Below, one piece after another: positions 12,537-25,694 of a DNA stretch of 64,000 nucleotides. The notes under the pieces were generated by a model. The model searched no databases and was not told where the DNA came from. It saw only the letters and a list, made by a program, of their open reading frames with translations. Position numbers and translations under genes: made by a program. The stretch's first letter is position 1. Every line of letters begins with the position of its first letter. The stretch covers positions 248,001 to 312,000 of the forward strand of contig SCRD01000028.1 in the NCBI GenBank assembly GCA_004298155.1, in the 5' to 3' direction. The DNA is from Acidobacteriota bacterium (GTDB lineage Bacteria; Acidobacteriota; Terriglobia; UBA7540).

Positions 12537-14321
12537 ATGAAACTTTCTCGCCGCCACATCCTGGGCTCGGGAGCAGCCCTTCTCGGTTCCAAACTGATGG
12601 AAGTTGTGACCACGCCCATCTGGAAATGGTCGGGGATTCCTGTGCTGGAGGCCGCCCAAGTCCCAAATCCCGAGGCCTCAATCCCGGTGACATACGTTGA
12701 TGTGGCGAAAGAGGCGGGTCTGCACGCGGTGAACGTGTGGGGCGGAGCAGAGCACAAAAAATACATTATTGAAGCCAAGGGAAACGGGATTGCCTTTTTT
12801 GATTACGACAATGATGGCTGGATTGACATCTACCTGACGAATGGAAACCGGCTGGATACCAAATGGCCTCCGGGCCAGGCTCCTACGACTCACCTCTACA
12901 AAAACAACCGCGACGGGACTTTTACCGACGTGACGGAGCATTCCGGCCTTGGGCGGACAGGCTGGCAAACGGGGGTTTGCGTCGGCGATTATGACAACGA
13001 CGGTTGGGACGACCTTTTCCTGACTTTCTGGGGCCAAAATGTCCTTTTCCACAACAACGGCGACGGAACGTTTACTGACGTCACCAAAAAGGCTGGCCTG
13101 TATCAGGATGAAGTGCGATGGGGCTCCGGCTGCACCTGGATTGATTACGACCGCGATGGCCACTTGGATTTGTTTGTCTGCAACTATATAGTTCTGGACC
13201 TCGCCAAGGTCCCCGTTCCCGGACAATCCGGCTACTGCCAGTGGAAAGGCATTCCGGTGATGTGCGGACCTCGCGGCCTGCCGGGCGGGTCGAACATTCT
13301 GTTCCACAACAATGGTAACGGGACCTTCACGGATGTGTCCGAGAAGTCGGGAATCCTGAAACCAGGTCCGCGGTACTCGATCACAGCCGTGGCCTATGAT
13401 TTTGACAACGACGGCTGGCCTGATATCTACGTGGCAGTCGATTCCGAACCGAGCATGCTGCTCCAAAACAAGCATGACGGCACATTTGAGGACATCGGCG
13501 TAATGGCCGGCTGCGCTTACAACGAAGACGGCCAGGAACAGGCCGGCATGGGCGTCGGTGTAGCTGACTACGACTGCGACGGCTGGTTCGACATTTTCAA
13601 AACTAATTTTTCCGATGACACGTCGGACCTTTATCGTAACAACGGCGATGGCACCTTTACCGATGTCACGTTTATGGCGGGAGTAGGCCAGGATACCCAG
13701 GACGTGAAATGGGGCTGCGGCTTTGTGGATTATGACAATGACGGCTGGCCGGATATTGTCCAGGTAAATGGCCACGTTTACCCCGAAGTTGACCAGCATC
13801 ACCTGAGCCAGACGTTCAGAGAACCCCGTATTGTCTATCGCAATCTGGGGAATGGCCGGTTCAAGAATGTCTCTGCGGAGATGGGGCCGGGAATCAACGA
13901 ACGTTTTTCCAGCCGGGGATGTGCGCTTGGTGATTACGACAACGACGGCGACATCGACATCGTAATCAACAACATGAATGAGGCACCATCGCTGCTTCGC
14001 AACGACGGCGGGAACAAGAACAACTGGATCAAGATCAAGCTGATGGGAACCGTGTGCAACCGCACGGCGATCGGCGCGCGGGCCTATGTAACAACCGGAA
14101 AGCACCGGCAGATGGACGAAGTCCACAGTGGAACCAGTGTGATGTCACAGAGTGATCTTCGTCTGCATTTTGGCGTGGGCAAAGCCGCCAAAATCGATCT
14201 GATTGAAGTGAAGTGGCCCACCACGCAGAAAATCGAAAAATTCACGAACATTGATGTCAACCAGATTCTGACCATCCGCGAAGGCCAAGGTATCGTCAAG
14301 AAGTCGAAGCCTGGAACGTAA
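12537..14321 (+). CDS. Exported CRTAC1-family protein: FG-GAP/VCBS repeats with ASPIC/UnbV domain
   Basis: 594 residues. The ATG at 12537 gives a twin-arginine-type signal (SRRHILGSGAALLG); a TTG at 12507 is in frame but less likely. The body is a beta-propeller of FG-GAP repeats, each with a calcium-binding loop of the form DYDNDGWDDLF; at least six such loops are seen (for example DFDNDGWPDIY, DYDCDGWFDIF, DYDNDGDIDIV). The C-terminal ~100 residues (NNWIKIKLMGTVCNRTAIGARA, VHSGTSVMSQSDLRLHFG, VKWPT) are the ASPIC/UnbV domain. The family is common in soil bacteria and is thought to be extracellular; the role is unknown. The stop overlaps the next start. Confidence 0.9.
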   Translation: MKLSRRHILGSGAALLGSKLMEVVTTPIWKWSGIPVLEAAQVPNPEASIPVTYVDVAKEAGLHAVNVWGGAEHKKYIIEAKGNGIAFFDYDNDGWIDIYLTNGNRLDTKWPPGQAPTTHLYKNNRDGTFTDVTEHSGLGRTGWQTGVCVGDYDNDGWDDLFLTFWGQNVLFHNNGDGTFTDVTKKAGLYQDEVRWGSGCTWIDYDRDGHLDLFVCNYIVLDLAKVPVPGQSGYCQWKGIPVMCGPRGLPGGSNILFHNNGNGTFTDVSEKSGILKPGPRYSITAVAYDFDNDGWPDIYVAVDSEPSMLLQNKHDGTFEDIGVMAGCAYNEDGQEQAGMGVGVADYDCDGWFDIFKTNFSDDTSDLYRNNGDGTFTDVTFMAGVGQDTQDVKWGCGFVDYDNDGWPDIVQVNGHVYPEVDQHHLSQTFREPRIVYRNLGNGRFKNVSAEMGPGINERFSSRGCALGDYDNDGDIDIVINNMNEAPSLLRNDGGNKNNWIKIKLMGTVCNRTAIGARAYVTTGKHRQMDEVHSGTSVMSQSDLRLHFGVGKAAKIDLIEVKWPTTQKIEKFTNIDVNQILTIREGQGIVKKSKPGT

Positions 14322-15526
14322 TGGGGCCTGGTGGCCCTGCAGCCGCCTATCAACTGAAGCTGGTTGTGAGTAAAATTGAATGGTTGAAGGAAGGGCCTGC
14401 GAAAGGTATTGCCGGCTTCCTCATTTTGCCGGCTTGTTTTGGCTTGGCGGTAGTTGGAGGCAGTGGTTTGCGTTTATTTCGGATTACAGCCATCGGGCTG
14501 GCATTCGCCGTGGTCGCTACCTTCGCTGATAGCACTGTCGGCTGGGCCTATGCCCGTCCGCCTGATTCTACTGCGGCAGACGCAGTCCCGAAGATTGTAA
14601 GTGTTCAGCCTTCCAGTGCCCAGCCGGGCAACCGGATTACTGTCAAGATCGCGGGAGTTAACCTCCTTTCTGGCGCATACGTTTCATTTTCGGATCCTGC
14701 CATTCATGTCCTCGCAACGCGGCGCACGAGCGAAACAGAGTTGGAAGTGGACATCGCTGTCGGCGAGATGGCAAAGCCGCAATCAGTGGTTCTCTATGTT
14801 TCAAACCCTTCGGGCGCCTCAGCACAAACCGCTTTCGCAATTACAGCGGCAACTCCCGCCGCAAGCCCGCCGCAGCAGAGCCAGTCCACCTCGGCAAATG
14901 GGCCCGTCGTGACTAAAGTTGATCCGCCCCGGGCTGCGCCCGGCAGCGAGCAGAGCATAAAAGTGACGGGCAAAAACTTCAAGGAAGGCGCCAAAATCGC
15001 TTTTACAAACCCCGGTATTCGTGTCAAAAAAACCGAGTTCAAGAAGTCAACACAACTGATTGCCCAAATCGAAGTTGCGCCCAATGCTCCGGCGGGCAAG
15101 ACCAGCCTGTTTGTCATCAATCCCGACGATAGCGAAGTTGAGGCTGCTTTCGAGGTTGGCGGAGGAAGTTCGACGGGCACAGAGACTGCTGGGAAGAAGA
15201 CCTCAACTCCTCCGGCCACGACGACACAACAATTCAGCGTCTACAACCTTGGTGATGCCACCAGCATTTTCCAGGATCCGGGCAAAGCCAAGGGCGAGTT
15301 GGGGGTTAAAAGCGGAAAGCTCCAGTACGAACAGGACGGCCAGGTTGTTTTCACGGCCAAGCCTGCCGAAATCCAGGAGATTGCTCCGAACGTGTTTTTT
15401 GGTCTAAACACCGGAACTTTCCACATCATCCTCACTTCAGGAAAGAGGTACAACTTTGTTGCCTCGTCCCTGGCCCCGGCTGACACCAATTCGATTATCG
15501 AATCCCTGCGAAGTGCATTGAAGTAA
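14321..15526 (+). CDS. Secreted protein with two IPT/TIG domains
   Basis: 401 residues. The ATG shares one base with the previous stop (TAATG), suggesting translational coupling with the CRTAC1-family gene. Hydrophobic segments at residues ~28-47 and ~51-70 act as signal or anchor. Two IPT/TIG immunoglobulin-like repeats follow, beginning PKIVSVQPSSAQPGNRITVKI and VVTKVDPPRAAPGSEQSIKV, joined by an Ala/Pro/Ser/Gln linker. After a second Thr-rich linker, the C-terminal ~100 residues resemble a pleckstrin-like or membrane-associated beta domain (SGKLQYEQDGQVVFTAKPAEIQEI). Probably a surface or envelope protein working with its neighbour; function unknown. Confidence 0.8.
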   Translation: MGPGGPAAAYQLKLVVSKIEWLKEGPAKGIAGFLILPACFGLAVVGGSGLRLFRITAIGLAFAVVATFADSTVGWAYARPPDSTAADAVPKIVSVQPSSAQPGNRITVKIAGVNLLSGAYVSFSDPAIHVLATRRTSETELEVDIAVGEMAKPQSVVLYVSNPSGASAQTAFAITAATPAASPPQQSQSTSANGPVVTKVDPPRAAPGSEQSIKVTGKNFKEGAKIAFTNPGIRVKKTEFKKSTQLIAQIEVAPNAPAGKTSLFVINPDDSEVEAAFEVGGGSSTGTETAGKKTSTPPATTTQQFSVYNLGDATSIFQDPGKAKGELGVKSGKLQYEQDGQVVFTAKPAEIQEIAPNVFFGLNTGTFHIILTSGKRYNFVASSLAPADTNSIIESLRSALK

Positions 15527-15690: not shown

Positions 15691-16374
15691 GTGAAACGCT
15701 ACGGTGAACATCGCTTTCCAGGAAAGTTGTTTGTCGTTGAAGGCATAGACGGCTCCGGGAAATCGACCCAGCTTAACCTTCTTCATCAATGGCTTCGAGC
15801 GGAAGGGTACGGGACAGTTTTCAGTGAATGGAACTCTTCGCCTCTGGTGCGTGACACGACTCGACGCGGCAAGAAGAGAAAAATGCTGACCCCGGCCAGC
15901 TTCTGCCTGATTCATGCCACGGACTTTGCAGACCGCATTGAGCACAACATTATCCCGCTGCTGAAGGCGGGCGCGGTTGTGCTCTGTGACCGATACATCT
16001 ACACAGCCTTTGCGCGAGACGTCGCGCGCGGCATGGATCCTGCCTGGGTAAGAGAGCTATATGCGTTTGCCGTGAAGCCCACCCTGGCTTTCTATTTCCG
16101 GGTGCCCCTGGAAGTTGCCATGAAGCGGCTGCTGGATGGCCGCAGCGGCTTCAAATTTTACGAGGCGGGCATGGATATGGAACTGAGTGACAATCCAGTG
16201 GAAAGCTTTGAAATTTTTCAGGGCCAGATTATTGAAGAGTACGACAAGATGATTTCTGAGTTCGACCTGACCGTGGTGGACGCCACCCTGCCAATCGAGG
16301 AACAGCAGACCCGGATGCGACAGTTGGTGAAAGCGAAATTGGCGGCGGCCAAACGGCTGAGGGTAGCACCGTGA
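15691..16374 (+). CDS. Thymidylate-kinase-like P-loop kinase, intact Walker A
   Basis: 227 residues, the size of a dTMP kinase. Walker A is GIDGSGKST at residues 18-26 and the kinase motif DRYIY follows KAGAVVLC. The usual TMP-site motif (REPGGT in canonical enzymes) is absent; the corresponding segment reads SEWNSSPLVRD. HATDFADR replaces the common AADRAQH. These changes suggest a substrate other than dTMP or a changed role, although databases would likely call it dTMP kinase. The GTG start has no strong ribosome-binding site. The stop overlaps the next start by four bases (GTGA), so the two kinase-like proteins are probably made together and may pair. Confidence 0.82.
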   Translation: MKRYGEHRFPGKLFVVEGIDGSGKSTQLNLLHQWLRAEGYGTVFSEWNSSPLVRDTTRRGKKRKMLTPASFCLIHATDFADRIEHNIIPLLKAGAVVLCDRYIYTAFARDVARGMDPAWVRELYAFAVKPTLAFYFRVPLEVAMKRLLDGRSGFKFYEAGMDMELSDNPVESFEIFQGQIIEEYDKMISEFDLTVVDATLPIEEQQTRMRQLVKAKLAAAKRLRVAP

Positions 16375-17150
16375 GATCAACCTATGGAGTGGTCTTGCCG
16401 GAGATGAGGCTGGAGAGCCTGCCGGGCAAGCTGATTGTAATCGAAGGGACCGACGGCGTTGGGCGTTCAACCCAGATCCAGTTGCTGAAGCCGTGGCTCG
16501 AACAACAGGGACGGGCGGTTGTGGATACCGGGATGACGCGGTCCAAACTGGCCGGAAAGGGAATCAAACAGGCCAAGCAGGGCCATACGATGGGCCGGGT
16601 GACACTGAACCTGTTTTATGCCACGGACTTTGCCGACCGCCTGGAAAATGAAATCGTTCCTGCGTTGCGCGCAGGCTTCGTGGTCCTCACAGACCGCTAC
16701 ATTTACTCTCTGATCGCGCGGGCGTCTGTCCGCGGAATTGATCCTTCCTGGGTCCGGAACGTTTATCGCTTTGCGCTGGTTCCTGACGCTGTTTTTTACC
16801 TCAGGATCGGCGTGGATGAACTGATTCCTCGCGTGGTCTTCTCAACAGGTTTTGATTACTGGGAATCCGGCATGGATCTCCACCCCAGCGAAGACATGTA
16901 TGAGAGCTTCCAGAAGTACCAGACTGCCCTGTTGTCGGAGTTCGAAAAACTTGTGGAAGAATATCAATTCAAGGTTATTGAGGCCACTCGGGATATTCCT
17001 GAGGTTTTTGAAGACCTCCGGCAAGGGATCAGCGATGTGCTGGCAGGGAGCGAACCACCGTCACTCGATACAATGACCGCACAAGCCCCTCGCGAGGAGC
17101 TGCCTCCCGGAACTTCCTTGCCGGCAGACAACAATGGGGCCGGAAACTGA
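16371..17150 (+). CDS. Thymidylate-kinase-like paralogue with Walker A Lys replaced by Arg
   Basis: 259 residues, clearly paralogous to the preceding protein (shared ATDFADR, DRYIY, RG(M/I)DP(A/S)WVR and (Y/W)E(A/S)GMD segments). Walker A reads GTDGVGRST, so the catalytic Lys is Arg32. As in its partner, no REPG-type TMP motif is present (DTGMTRSKLAG instead). A ~35-residue Pro/Ala-rich tail extends the C terminus. The Lys-to-Arg change usually weakens phosphoryl transfer, so this may be a regulatory or pseudo-kinase subunit of a heterodimer. Start GTG at 16371 overlaps the upstream stop. It is convergent with the CHAD gene, 11 bases apart. Confidence 0.8.
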   Translation: MRSTYGVVLPEMRLESLPGKLIVIEGTDGVGRSTQIQLLKPWLEQQGRAVVDTGMTRSKLAGKGIKQAKQGHTMGRVTLNLFYATDFADRLENEIVPALRAGFVVLTDRYIYSLIARASVRGIDPSWVRNVYRFALVPDAVFYLRIGVDELIPRVVFSTGFDYWESGMDLHPSEDMYESFQKYQTALLSEFEKLVEEYQFKVIEATRDIPEVFEDLRQGISDVLAGSEPPSLDTMTAQAPREELPPGTSLPADNNGAGN

Positions 17151-17161
17151 AAGGCTCTGGC

Positions 17162-18286
17162 CTAGGAATCGGCAAACAGGGCGGCCGGTGAATCCACCAT
17201 ACGGCGCACCCACTCCCTCGTTTTAAGGAAGCCTGTCCTGTCCCGGATCATTTCAAAGTATTTCTTCTCTAACTTTGATTTCAACGTCCGGTTCCTCATG
17301 ATCAAGCGTTCAACCTGGATCGCCATTTCCAGGTGATCGCGCAGAAAGTTGCGGTCAGCGAGCATTCCTATGACGGATTCCTCAAACACAACCAGATCGT
17401 GCCAGTCGCCCAGTTGGGTCTGGAGACTTCGCAGCCAGATCAAGGCTTCTCTGCTTCCCGGCGCCTCGAACGCATGAATCACCTCAATCAGGTAGCGCGC
17501 ACGTTTGGCAGCTATGCGAGTACGGTGCAAAACCGAAGCGTCACGCTCGTGGTGTGAATGCGCGATTTCTCGTTCGAGCTCTGCCCAAACGTCTTCCAGT
17601 GCATGGCCGATACGCTCGTAGAATTGCTCAGCCTCAAGATGATGTTCTGCGCCATTGCTGGCGGAGGGATCGACCACGCAGGCAGAGGTTCCGTCGGCAG
17701 GAAGGAATTCTTTCAAGCGCACATAGATAGAAGAAAGGTTGGCTTTCGCCAGCTTGCGCAAAGATTTTTCCAGCCTGACCGAACGCAAGCCTCTCAGGTA
17801 TTCTCCAATGGCTTCCCATGCTTGCCGGCGAGCGGTGTGCTTACGGGCAAGCGCTGCGCCAACCCTTTCAAGCAATACGTCATAATTCCGAATTTCAGAC
17901 AGCGACTTTCGGCAGCGCTTAAGGCCCCGATACAATTTCCGAACCTCTCCCGAACGCGGAGAAGGATAAATAAGGCTAATTGCCTGCTGAAGGCGCCGGG
18001 TAGCTACGCGTAGATCATGGATGGCATCAGGATCATCACCCTGAAGGACCTTGGGTTCCAGAGAGACGCAGCGGTCAAGGTGCTTGAGGGCCAGCTCGGA
18101 CACCCGCGCCCATTCACCCTGCCGTGCGCCCTTGTTTTCCCCGCCTGAAACTTCCCGCTCGGCGTCCGCATCTTGTGATTGGACCTGGTCCTTACGGGCT
18201 TCCAGCGCGCCTCCGTTCCGCGGAAGCGCGGTTGGCGAACCATCCGGGAGGGTATTGTGTCCTGCATGTCCGTTTAAGTGAGCCAT
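17162..18286 (-). CDS. CHAD-domain protein (polyphosphate-binding helical domain)
   Basis: About 374 residues from the ATG at 18286, which has AGGCGG upstream; the open frame extends further but with no convincing start. CHAD is an alpha-helical, basic domain that binds inorganic polyphosphate. Two helical repeats are visible: AIHDLRVATRRLQQAISLI (around residue 85) and VLHRTRIAAKRARYLIEVI (around residue 250), each with the signature HxxR and basic residues. The first ~60 residues are polar and probably disordered. No CYTH domain is fused. Convergent with the kinase-like pair and ~330 bases from nifJ on the opposite strand. Confidence 0.88.
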   Translation of the reverse strand: MAHLNGHAGHNTLPDGSPTALPRNGGALEARKDQVQSQDADAEREVSGGENKGARQGEWARVSELALKHLDRCVSLEPKVLQGDDPDAIHDLRVATRRLQQAISLIYPSPRSGEVRKLYRGLKRCRKSLSEIRNYDVLLERVGAALARKHTARRQAWEAIGEYLRGLRSVRLEKSLRKLAKANLSSIYVRLKEFLPADGTSACVVDPSASNGAEHHLEAEQFYERIGHALEDVWAELEREIAHSHHERDASVLHRTRIAAKRARYLIEVIHAFEAPGSREALIWLRSLQTQLGDWHDLVVFEESVIGMLADRNFLRDHLEMAIQVERLIMRNRTLKSKLEKKYFEMIRDRTGFLKTREWVRRMVDSPAALFADS

Positions 18287-18536
18287 CCATGCCGCCTGAT
18301 GAGATGAAATCTGTTGCCCGGGGCGCGTGGCTGCCAGCAGAAGATGCCGCCTGCAGTTGACGGGCAGGACCCAAACAAACGCATATACCGATATAGACAG
18401 TCTACAGGCGATTGAGAGCCAATTCAACGGTTTCCCTTCGCTCCCGGTGGGCCTGGTCAAGCGGATTTAGGTTCCTGCAAAACACGCAAAAAATACAACA
18501 TTTTGGGCATTTTCGAAAGTCCTGTTACTCCCAAAG

Positions 18537-25151: not shown

Positions 25152-25694
25152 TCAACCAATCTTCCGCATGACCCGCGGTGTGAGCCACCATATGAGTTTT
25201 CCCGGAGGACGAGGAGGAAATTTGTCGAAATCGATACGGCAACATCCTCCTTTCTTGAACTGAAAACTGGCACGGGTGTTCCCGATCAGTCTTGCCACGC
25301 CCTCACTGAGGTCTGGCTCATGCCCGACCACGAGAACGCTGCGGTGGTCATTCCGCTTGCCGAGAGAAGTCAGCAACGCCTGCAATGACCCGCCCGGCCG
25401 CAGGAAATCCGAAGACTCAACCTTGATGCCGGGGCCAAAAACCTCCGCGACGATTGCGGCCGTTTCAGAGGCCCGGACCAGCGGACTGCTGATGATGGAG
25501 TCCACGCAAAGCCCAAGGCGGAAAAGTCCTTTTGCTATCGCCCGCAACTTCTTCTTACCCTCTGACGTTAGTGGGCGTTGCGCATCATCAGGAAAATTGG
25601 GGTCGCCCCGGGCAACCGCAATCCCGTGTCGCATTACGTAGAATTGATAGCCTTGTGTATCTTTACTTTCGTTGGTGTCATTGACCGAAGGCAT
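25152..25694 (-). CDS. sixA: SixA-type histidine phosphatase
   Basis: 180 residues in the histidine phosphatase superfamily. The catalytic RHG motif is at residues 22-24 (VMRHGIA), the second catalytic His is in VVGHEPDLS, and SSPLVRASETAAIV supplies the usual Arg. SixA removes phosphate from phosphohistidine proteins in signalling or PTS-type relays. GAGG precedes the ATG at 25694. Monocistronic or first of a short minus-strand set; the CHAD gene lies ~7 kb away. Confidence 0.87.
   Translation of the reverse strand: MPSVNDTNESKDTQGYQFYVMRHGIAVARGDPNFPDDAQRPLTSEGKKKLRAIAKGLFRLGLCVDSIISSPLVRASETAAIVAEVFGPGIKVESSDFLRPGGSLQALLTSLGKRNDHRSVLVVGHEPDLSEGVARLIGNTRASFQFKKGGCCRIDFDKFPPRPPGKLIWWLTPRVMRKIG

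Follow-up and report, generated by a model that had tools for sequence, protein, structure and literature searches.

A conserved tandem pair of thymidylate-kinase-fold genes with a Walker A arginine in one partner: a candidate two-subunit enzyme of polyphosphate metabolism in bacteria

Two overlapping paralogous genes of the thymidylate kinase fold, here called A and B, lie side by side in a 64,000-nucleotide stretch of the genome of an Acidobacteriota bacterium (GenBank assembly GCA_004298155.1, contig SCRD01000028.1, positions 248,001 to 312,000; this whole stretch is the window, in whose numbering coordinates are given). We consider it moderately likely, judging from sequence, that the two proteins are the subunits of one polyphosphate kinase-like enzyme, with an intact kinase subunit joined by an impaired one, that acts in the metabolism of polyphosphate, a polymer in which phosphate is stored. 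This reading is based on five lines of evidence: (i) the conservation of the tandem pair, (ii) an invariant arginine in the Walker A motif of B, (iii) an altered acceptor site, (iv) a neighbourhood of polyphosphate genes, and (v) a depletion of the polyphosphate kinase PPK1 in two of three groups of genomes that carry the pair.

Gene A (15691-16374, plus strand) and gene B (16371-17150, plus strand) both start with GTG and encode 227 and 259 amino acids, respectively; the stop codon of A and the start codon of B overlap in the sequence GTGA at 16371-16374. A first-pass annotation made from the letters alone had described them as overlapping paralogues that lack the REPG motif, the second with GTDGVGRST instead of a canonical Walker A, and each of these points was borne out. 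Both proteins are well above the cut-off of 27 bits for PF02223 (A, 82.5 bits; B, 87.1 bits), and both pass the NCBIfam model for deoxythymidine monophosphate (dTMP) kinase, TIGR00041, more narrowly (87.9 and 85.5 bits against 83.25), while of three further A relatives one is just over this threshold (83.6 bits) and two are under it (77.3 and 75.3 bits). Neither protein matches PF03976 (PPK2) or PF02503 (PPK1) among Pfam matches to an E value of 0.1.

Residues were counted over unique aligned rows (106 for A and 108 for B, window included), from a locus set that left out matches below 150 bits and the loci of the window's own genome (L001-L005). The Walker A motif of A, GIDGSGKST (15742-15768, plus strand), keeps its lysine in all 106 rows; at the corresponding position of GTDGVGRST in B (16446-16472, plus strand) arginine stands in 108 of 108, which rules out a chance or single-lineage change. 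A further keeps the arginine of the DRY motif in 105 of 106 rows (the remaining one being a gap), the LID arginine in every row and the LID lysine in 102. In B, the rest of the P-loop, its aspartate and DRY are largely kept, and the LID lysine position is occupied by aspartate in 103 of 108 rows. The place of REPG is taken by EWNSS in A and GMTRS in B. Its arginine, which we take to be a residue of the thymidine monophosphate (TMP) site, is replaced in A by glutamate (94 rows), alanine (7) or glutamine (5) and in B by glycine, glutamate or alanine; at the position of a second arginine, presumably the one that reads the thymine, phenylalanine or leucine is found in all 106 A and 108 B rows. As far as sequence can tell, A therefore appears to retain a full catalytic set beside its altered acceptor site, and B, though strictly conserved, appears to be compromised in its handling of ATP.

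The ordinary enzyme is encoded elsewhere in the same genome: a separate canonical tmk, with REPGG and the second thymine-site arginine in place, scores 165 bits on contig C1, beside an open reading frame read by eye as holB-like. The first-pass annotation had proposed looking for such a gene, and its presence led us to reject the pair as the housekeeping dTMP kinase of this genome. Compared with the canonical thymidylate kinase (TIGR00041), the pair shares the fold, the DRY motif and, in A, the P-loop, but lacks REPG and the thymine-site arginine, adds a tandem partner with a Walker A arginine and is accompanied by the separate tmk. A fourth, weak PF02223 match in this genome (G000:C6:30305-30814) stands beside open reading frames read by eye as folK- and panB-like.

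The pair is widespread. Relatives of B at an E value of 1e-15 or better occur in 56 of 297 Acidobacteriota genomes, 38 of which are counted as pair genomes (37 with both genes and one, G237, with B only; weaker or divergent single matches were excluded). A scan of genome contigs assigned the best 80 of 265 loci, by record title, to Acidobacteria, Deltaproteobacteria, Proteobacteria, Chloroflexi/Ktedonobacteria, Planctomycetota, Bacteroidetes/Ignavibacteriae and Armatimonadetes. Both genes are present at 107 loci besides the window (one organism may count twice). Two of these, with broken A frames, were dropped, and at all 105 of the 105 that remained A stood ahead of B in the same orientation, the aligned parts being separated by a median of 6 bases, so that the conserved order anticipated in relatives by the first-pass annotation was found. 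The distance matrices of A and B over these loci are correlated (Pearson 0.905), none of 2,000 permutations reaching as high a value. A quick tree, built from 70 rows, sets A and B each apart by a branch (support 82 and 100), with longer branches in B; the tree flags long branches, and its placement of the archaeal relative ST1543 and of the divergent pair described below is unsure. The arrangement is that expected of an active kinase with a pseudo-kinase, namely conserved tandem paralogues in one of which Walker A has changed.

Structural comparison places both proteins close to a single archaeal protein. AlphaFold models of the monomers are confident (pLDDT 84.4 for A and 83.5 for B), and in the fold search against 5h70, a structure of ST1543 from Sulfolobus tokodaii, the A model gave a Z score of 27.4 with a root-mean-square deviation of 1.6 over 206 residues, the B model a Z score of 25.6 with 1.9 over 204 residues. 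By sequence, ST1543 (2plr) is likewise the nearest solved structure of A (E 8.9e-56) and of B. This protein, deposited as a dTMP kinase (PDB 2plr, 4nzy, 4rzx and 5h70), has EWNSS, LIHATDF and DRYIYTA-ARD in common with A and carries the Walker A lysine, hence resembling A, unlike B.

The genes around the pair point to polyphosphate. Neighbours, named from Pfam, were counted at the 48 of 136 pair loci that have 4 kb on both sides, a set that is not de-duplicated (L075 and L140 are apparently one contig, and further doubles are possible), and compared with 20 control regions, each of 12 kb, drawn from three pair genomes. Within 4 kb of the pair, PPX is found at 26 of the 48 loci, CHAD at 29, SixA at 15 and a calcineurin-like phosphatase, which is absent from the 20 control regions, at 7; at least one of PPX, CHAD and SixA is found at 35 of the 48 pair loci and in none of the controls. 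These three are the commonest recurring neighbour families, in a survey that did not search systematically for nucleotide genes. The CHAD family has been reported as a polyphosphate-binding module (PMC6537752). The gene string PPX-A-B-CHAD-SixA recurs at L129-L132, in the class to which genome G297 belongs, and at L142-L148, which represent seven acidobacterial families; L132 and L147 have it in full, and at the other loci one of its genes is absent, cut short or inverted.

The window itself holds two of these neighbours, both as the first-pass annotation had named them. A CHAD-domain gene (PF05235, 117.9 bits; longest open reading frame 17162-18460, minus strand) runs convergent to B and ends 11 bases from the B stop codon; since the CHAD match opens only at residue 124 of this frame, the true start, uncertain as it is, probably lies below 18460. 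A SixA-like histidine phosphatase of the kind seen in the operons elsewhere (PF00300, His_Phos_1; 25152-25694, minus strand) is 8 kb from the pair. The possible link to polyphosphate genes, raised in that annotation from these two neighbours, has been found to recur across phyla; the operons of the form PPX-A-B-CHAD-SixA, the depletion of PPK1 in some of the groups and a possible known relative in Crenarchaeota go beyond it.

The distribution of PPK1 provides the last line of evidence. In the sample of 297 Acidobacteriota genomes, 5 of the 38 with the pair carry PPK1, compared with 161 of the 259 others (Fisher p 8.7e-9, uncorrected for kinship). PPK2 is present in 31 of the 38 pair genomes, and within the PPK2-positive genomes PPK1 accompanies 5 of 31 with the pair and 141 of 149 without it, or 141 of 159 when ten weak PPK2 matches (E 1.5e-6 to 9.3e-4), left out of the count and absent from the lists of pair and PPK1 genomes, are restored. 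The 38 pair genomes represent 28 genera, in 5 of which the pair genome itself has PPK1, set against 93 of 167 genera with PPK1 in the whole sample; two genera (g10 and g43) contain both pair genomes and PPK1 genomes. In the class of genome G307, PPK1 is found in 0 of 9 pair genomes (one of them, G487, a single match, and five already among the best 80 of the 265 loci) and in 118 of 160 others (p 1.2e-5).

If this reading is correct, A would act as the catalytic subunit, a P-loop kinase that transfers phosphate between ATP and the terminus of a polyphosphate chain, and B, a paralogue that is probably non-catalytic, would have been retained to complete the dimer or to regulate it. In the window's own genome, where profile searches gave no match to PPK1 or PPX and one to PPK2, the pair would supply polyphosphate, the CHAD protein would bind it and PPK2 would use it. 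The earlier proposal of an active kinase and a pseudo-kinase acting as a heterodimer on a changed substrate holds for the conserved intact and degenerate subunits and for the altered acceptor site; the dimer itself, its substrate and the direction of the reaction are what we infer. A precedent for such gene organization is the deoxyadenosine/deoxyguanosine kinase of Lactobacillus, in which tandem paralogous kinase genes give rise to one heterodimer, although it belongs to a different family and both of its subunits are active.

The nearest known system may be archaeal. One source (PMC10892726) describes a CHAD neighbourhood of Sulfolobales in which SixA, PPX, dTMP kinase and CHAD are found among others, at a time when the crenarchaeal polyphosphate-making enzyme was unknown, and according to two more (PMC7831078 and PMC6864096) no PPK1 or PPK2 homologue is known in Crenarchaeota. 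According to later papers (PMC11677633 and PMC13318637), the crenarchaeal enzyme has since been characterised as a distinct family by Hofmann et al. (bioRxiv 2024, 10.1101/2024.08.28.610084; J Biol Chem 2026, 302(4):111283), the 'family 3' polyphosphate kinase, which enters the present comparison through citations and one-line descriptions. In our control search, Sulfolobus acidocaldarius gave no match to PPK1 or PPK2 but did match PPX, and a gene annotated as dTMP kinase lies near CHAD, PPX and SixA in Sulfolobales, so that the two systems are possibly of the same kind; likened by description, the bacterial pair may be a branch of the crenarchaeal family. The setting seen in Sulfolobales, with PPX and CHAD present and PPK1 absent, has a partial parallel among bacteria: the neighbour counts agree with it, PPK1 is depleted in two groups but not in the third, and the own genome has CHAD but no PPX. 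A full-text literature search, from whose coverage most subscription papers and all preprints fall outside, returned, among the matches listed, no description of the bacterial pair, and within that coverage the strictly conserved Walker A arginine partner and the bacterial spread are the parts that were not found in the literature.

A second tandem pair came to light among the divergent matches read in seven Acidobacteriota genomes. In five of these (L133 and L136-L139, in genomes G107, G116, G167, G062 and G213) the gene that comes after an A-like kinase, overlapping or adjoining it, encodes a partner in which Walker A is gone and APY replaces DRY. At four of these loci no polyphosphate gene was present among the six neighbouring proteins scanned; the second pair speaks for the general pattern of an active kinase beside a broken one, and not for the link to polyphosphate. 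It is possible, though we put it forward only tentatively, that an anciently duplicated two-subunit polyphosphate synthase with an invariant Walker A arginine subunit replaces PPK1 in many bacterial lineages (Acidobacteriota, an Ignavibacteriae-like class and others), and that the same family gave rise to another pair whose second member is wholly degenerate.

Several observations weigh against a polyphosphate-making pair with one dead subunit. (i) The depletion of PPK1 is not general: in the class of G297 it is present in 29 of 44 pair genomes (eight already among the best 80 of the 265 loci) and in 67 of 104 others (p = 1); it occurs in 20 of 50 pair genomes hand-picked for spread across phyla from those best 80 loci; and in the 29 of these 50 that are acidobacterial by title it occurs in 13, which is not significantly below the other genomes of the phylum (p 0.075) and makes the depletion less marked here than in the phylum sample. 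The idea that the pair excludes PPK1 as a general rule is rejected on the counts of 20 of 50 and 29 of 44. (ii) At 13 of the 48 loci no PPX, CHAD or SixA lies within 4 kb, and the phosphate-transport gene PstB is not enriched (4 of 48 loci against 2 of 20 controls), PstS being rare (2 of 48). (iii) PPX was looked for in 18 pair genomes and matched in 15, in 14 of them over the cut-off; the own genome and two more have none, and the PPK2 of the own genome could itself make polyphosphate. (iv) Five acidobacterial pair genomes (G005, G018, G032, G109 and G136) show no recognisable ordinary tmk, the own genome's tmk as query matching only the pair there. (v) On phage-like IMG/VR contigs there are A-like kinases that stand alone, two of them with scaffold or terminase genes next to them; in one open reading frame (L178, 4920-6086) Pfam finds the kinase domain fused to an inorganic pyrophosphatase domain. 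(vi) Two loci, L024 (genome G237) and L090, have B without A in the DNA available, as tblastn confirmed, and their B has the Walker A arginine. (vii) An arginine occurs within the four residues before the LID aspartate in 59 of the 107 B rows with a readable motif and is missing from 48, which makes the main reading slightly less probable and a B that is not dead slightly more so.

Three alternative explanations were weighed. It is unlikely that A and B, or A alone, are an accessory nucleoside monophosphate (NMP) kinase of shifted specificity, for dTMP or another NMP, whose polyphosphate neighbours reflect a general phosphate economy. The fold and the curated models do say dTMP kinase, as does the deposition of ST1543, and in the five tmk-less genomes A or A+B might serve in this capacity; the lone kinases on phage-like contigs and the pyrophosphatase fusion likewise argue that the wider family includes nucleotide kinases. 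A gene read by eye as the large subunit of carbamoyl-phosphate synthase (cluster c26; L089, L108 and L113) is near the pair in three loci, and a dihydroorotate-dehydrogenase-family gene lies 5 kb from it in the window. Against this, 33 of the 38 acidobacterial pair genomes have an ordinary tmk of more than 100 bits separate from the pair, the thymine-site residues are replaced in all rows, and in the tmk-less genomes G018, G032 and G109 A has the usual EWNSS/HATDF acceptor motif with no return to REPG; PPX, CHAD and SixA, moreover, outnumber any other recurring neighbour in the survey above, which made no systematic search for nucleotide genes.

More improbable is a pair working in the opposite direction, as a polyphosphate-driven regenerator of ATP or ADP in the manner of PPK2, with B binding the chain and A performing the transfer. 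PPK2 (PF03976) is likewise a P-loop kinase with a thymidylate-kinase-like fold, and its class II unites an inactive and an active domain in one chain, as PMC8776046 describes; A and B differ from it in being separate genes. PPK2 chains were absent from the PDB sequence-search lists and from the best 50 rows of each fold search, which excludes nothing. The PPX and CHAD neighbours would also suit a regenerator, as would the fact that the pair and PPK1 are found together in the class of G297; in six genomes of that class, spotted by eye, the two share a contig at a distance of 7 to 15.5 kb (for example G533:C27, G532:C91 and G544:C30). The depletion of PPK1 in the other two groups suggests a synthetic role there, however, and PPK2 is already at hand in most acidobacterial pair genomes. 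Quite improbable, finally, is a B subunit that is not dead, its arginine still coordinating the phosphates of ATP in a slow or different phosphotransfer of its own or in sensing: the arginine is invariant and not drifting, the surrounding motifs largely persist, about half of the B rows have an arginine near the LID and two loci have B alone, but the exchange of the LID lysine for aspartate and the complete loss of Walker A from the partner in the second pair argue against it.

Should the two-subunit polyphosphate enzyme be the correct reading, it would bear on how these genomes are described. Because both A and B pass the dTMP-kinase model, a genome with the pair would be annotated with a spare dTMP kinase and, if PPK1 is absent, as having no dedicated polyphosphate synthase, and, if the pair makes polyphosphate, phosphate storage would have been overlooked in many uncultivated soil and groundwater bacteria. 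The invariant lysine-to-arginine partner also lends itself well to the question of why an altered kinase site is retained.

Several minor observations concern mobile elements and the remaining genes around the pair. The viral scan returned 33 loci, and at the 18 examined the A and B profiles picked up nothing but single A-like kinases; four further IMG/VR loci (L179-L182) have open reading frames similar in length to the L178 fusion, the likeness being one of length and kinase match alone. At an E value of 1e-10, six plasmid records have distant matches to A and one to B. A link to defence systems was rejected, the matches being weak ones to a single PADLOC candidate model (27.8 and 30.4 bits) that we read as a shared P-loop fold. 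A short conserved protein (cluster c11; for example L030, 2259-2642), with no Pfam match at an E value of 1e-5, lies directly 3' of B in four loci. Just upstream of gene A, the window encodes an IPT/TIG-domain protein (14321-15526; cluster c5), relatives of which lie upstream of the pair in several acidobacterial loci.

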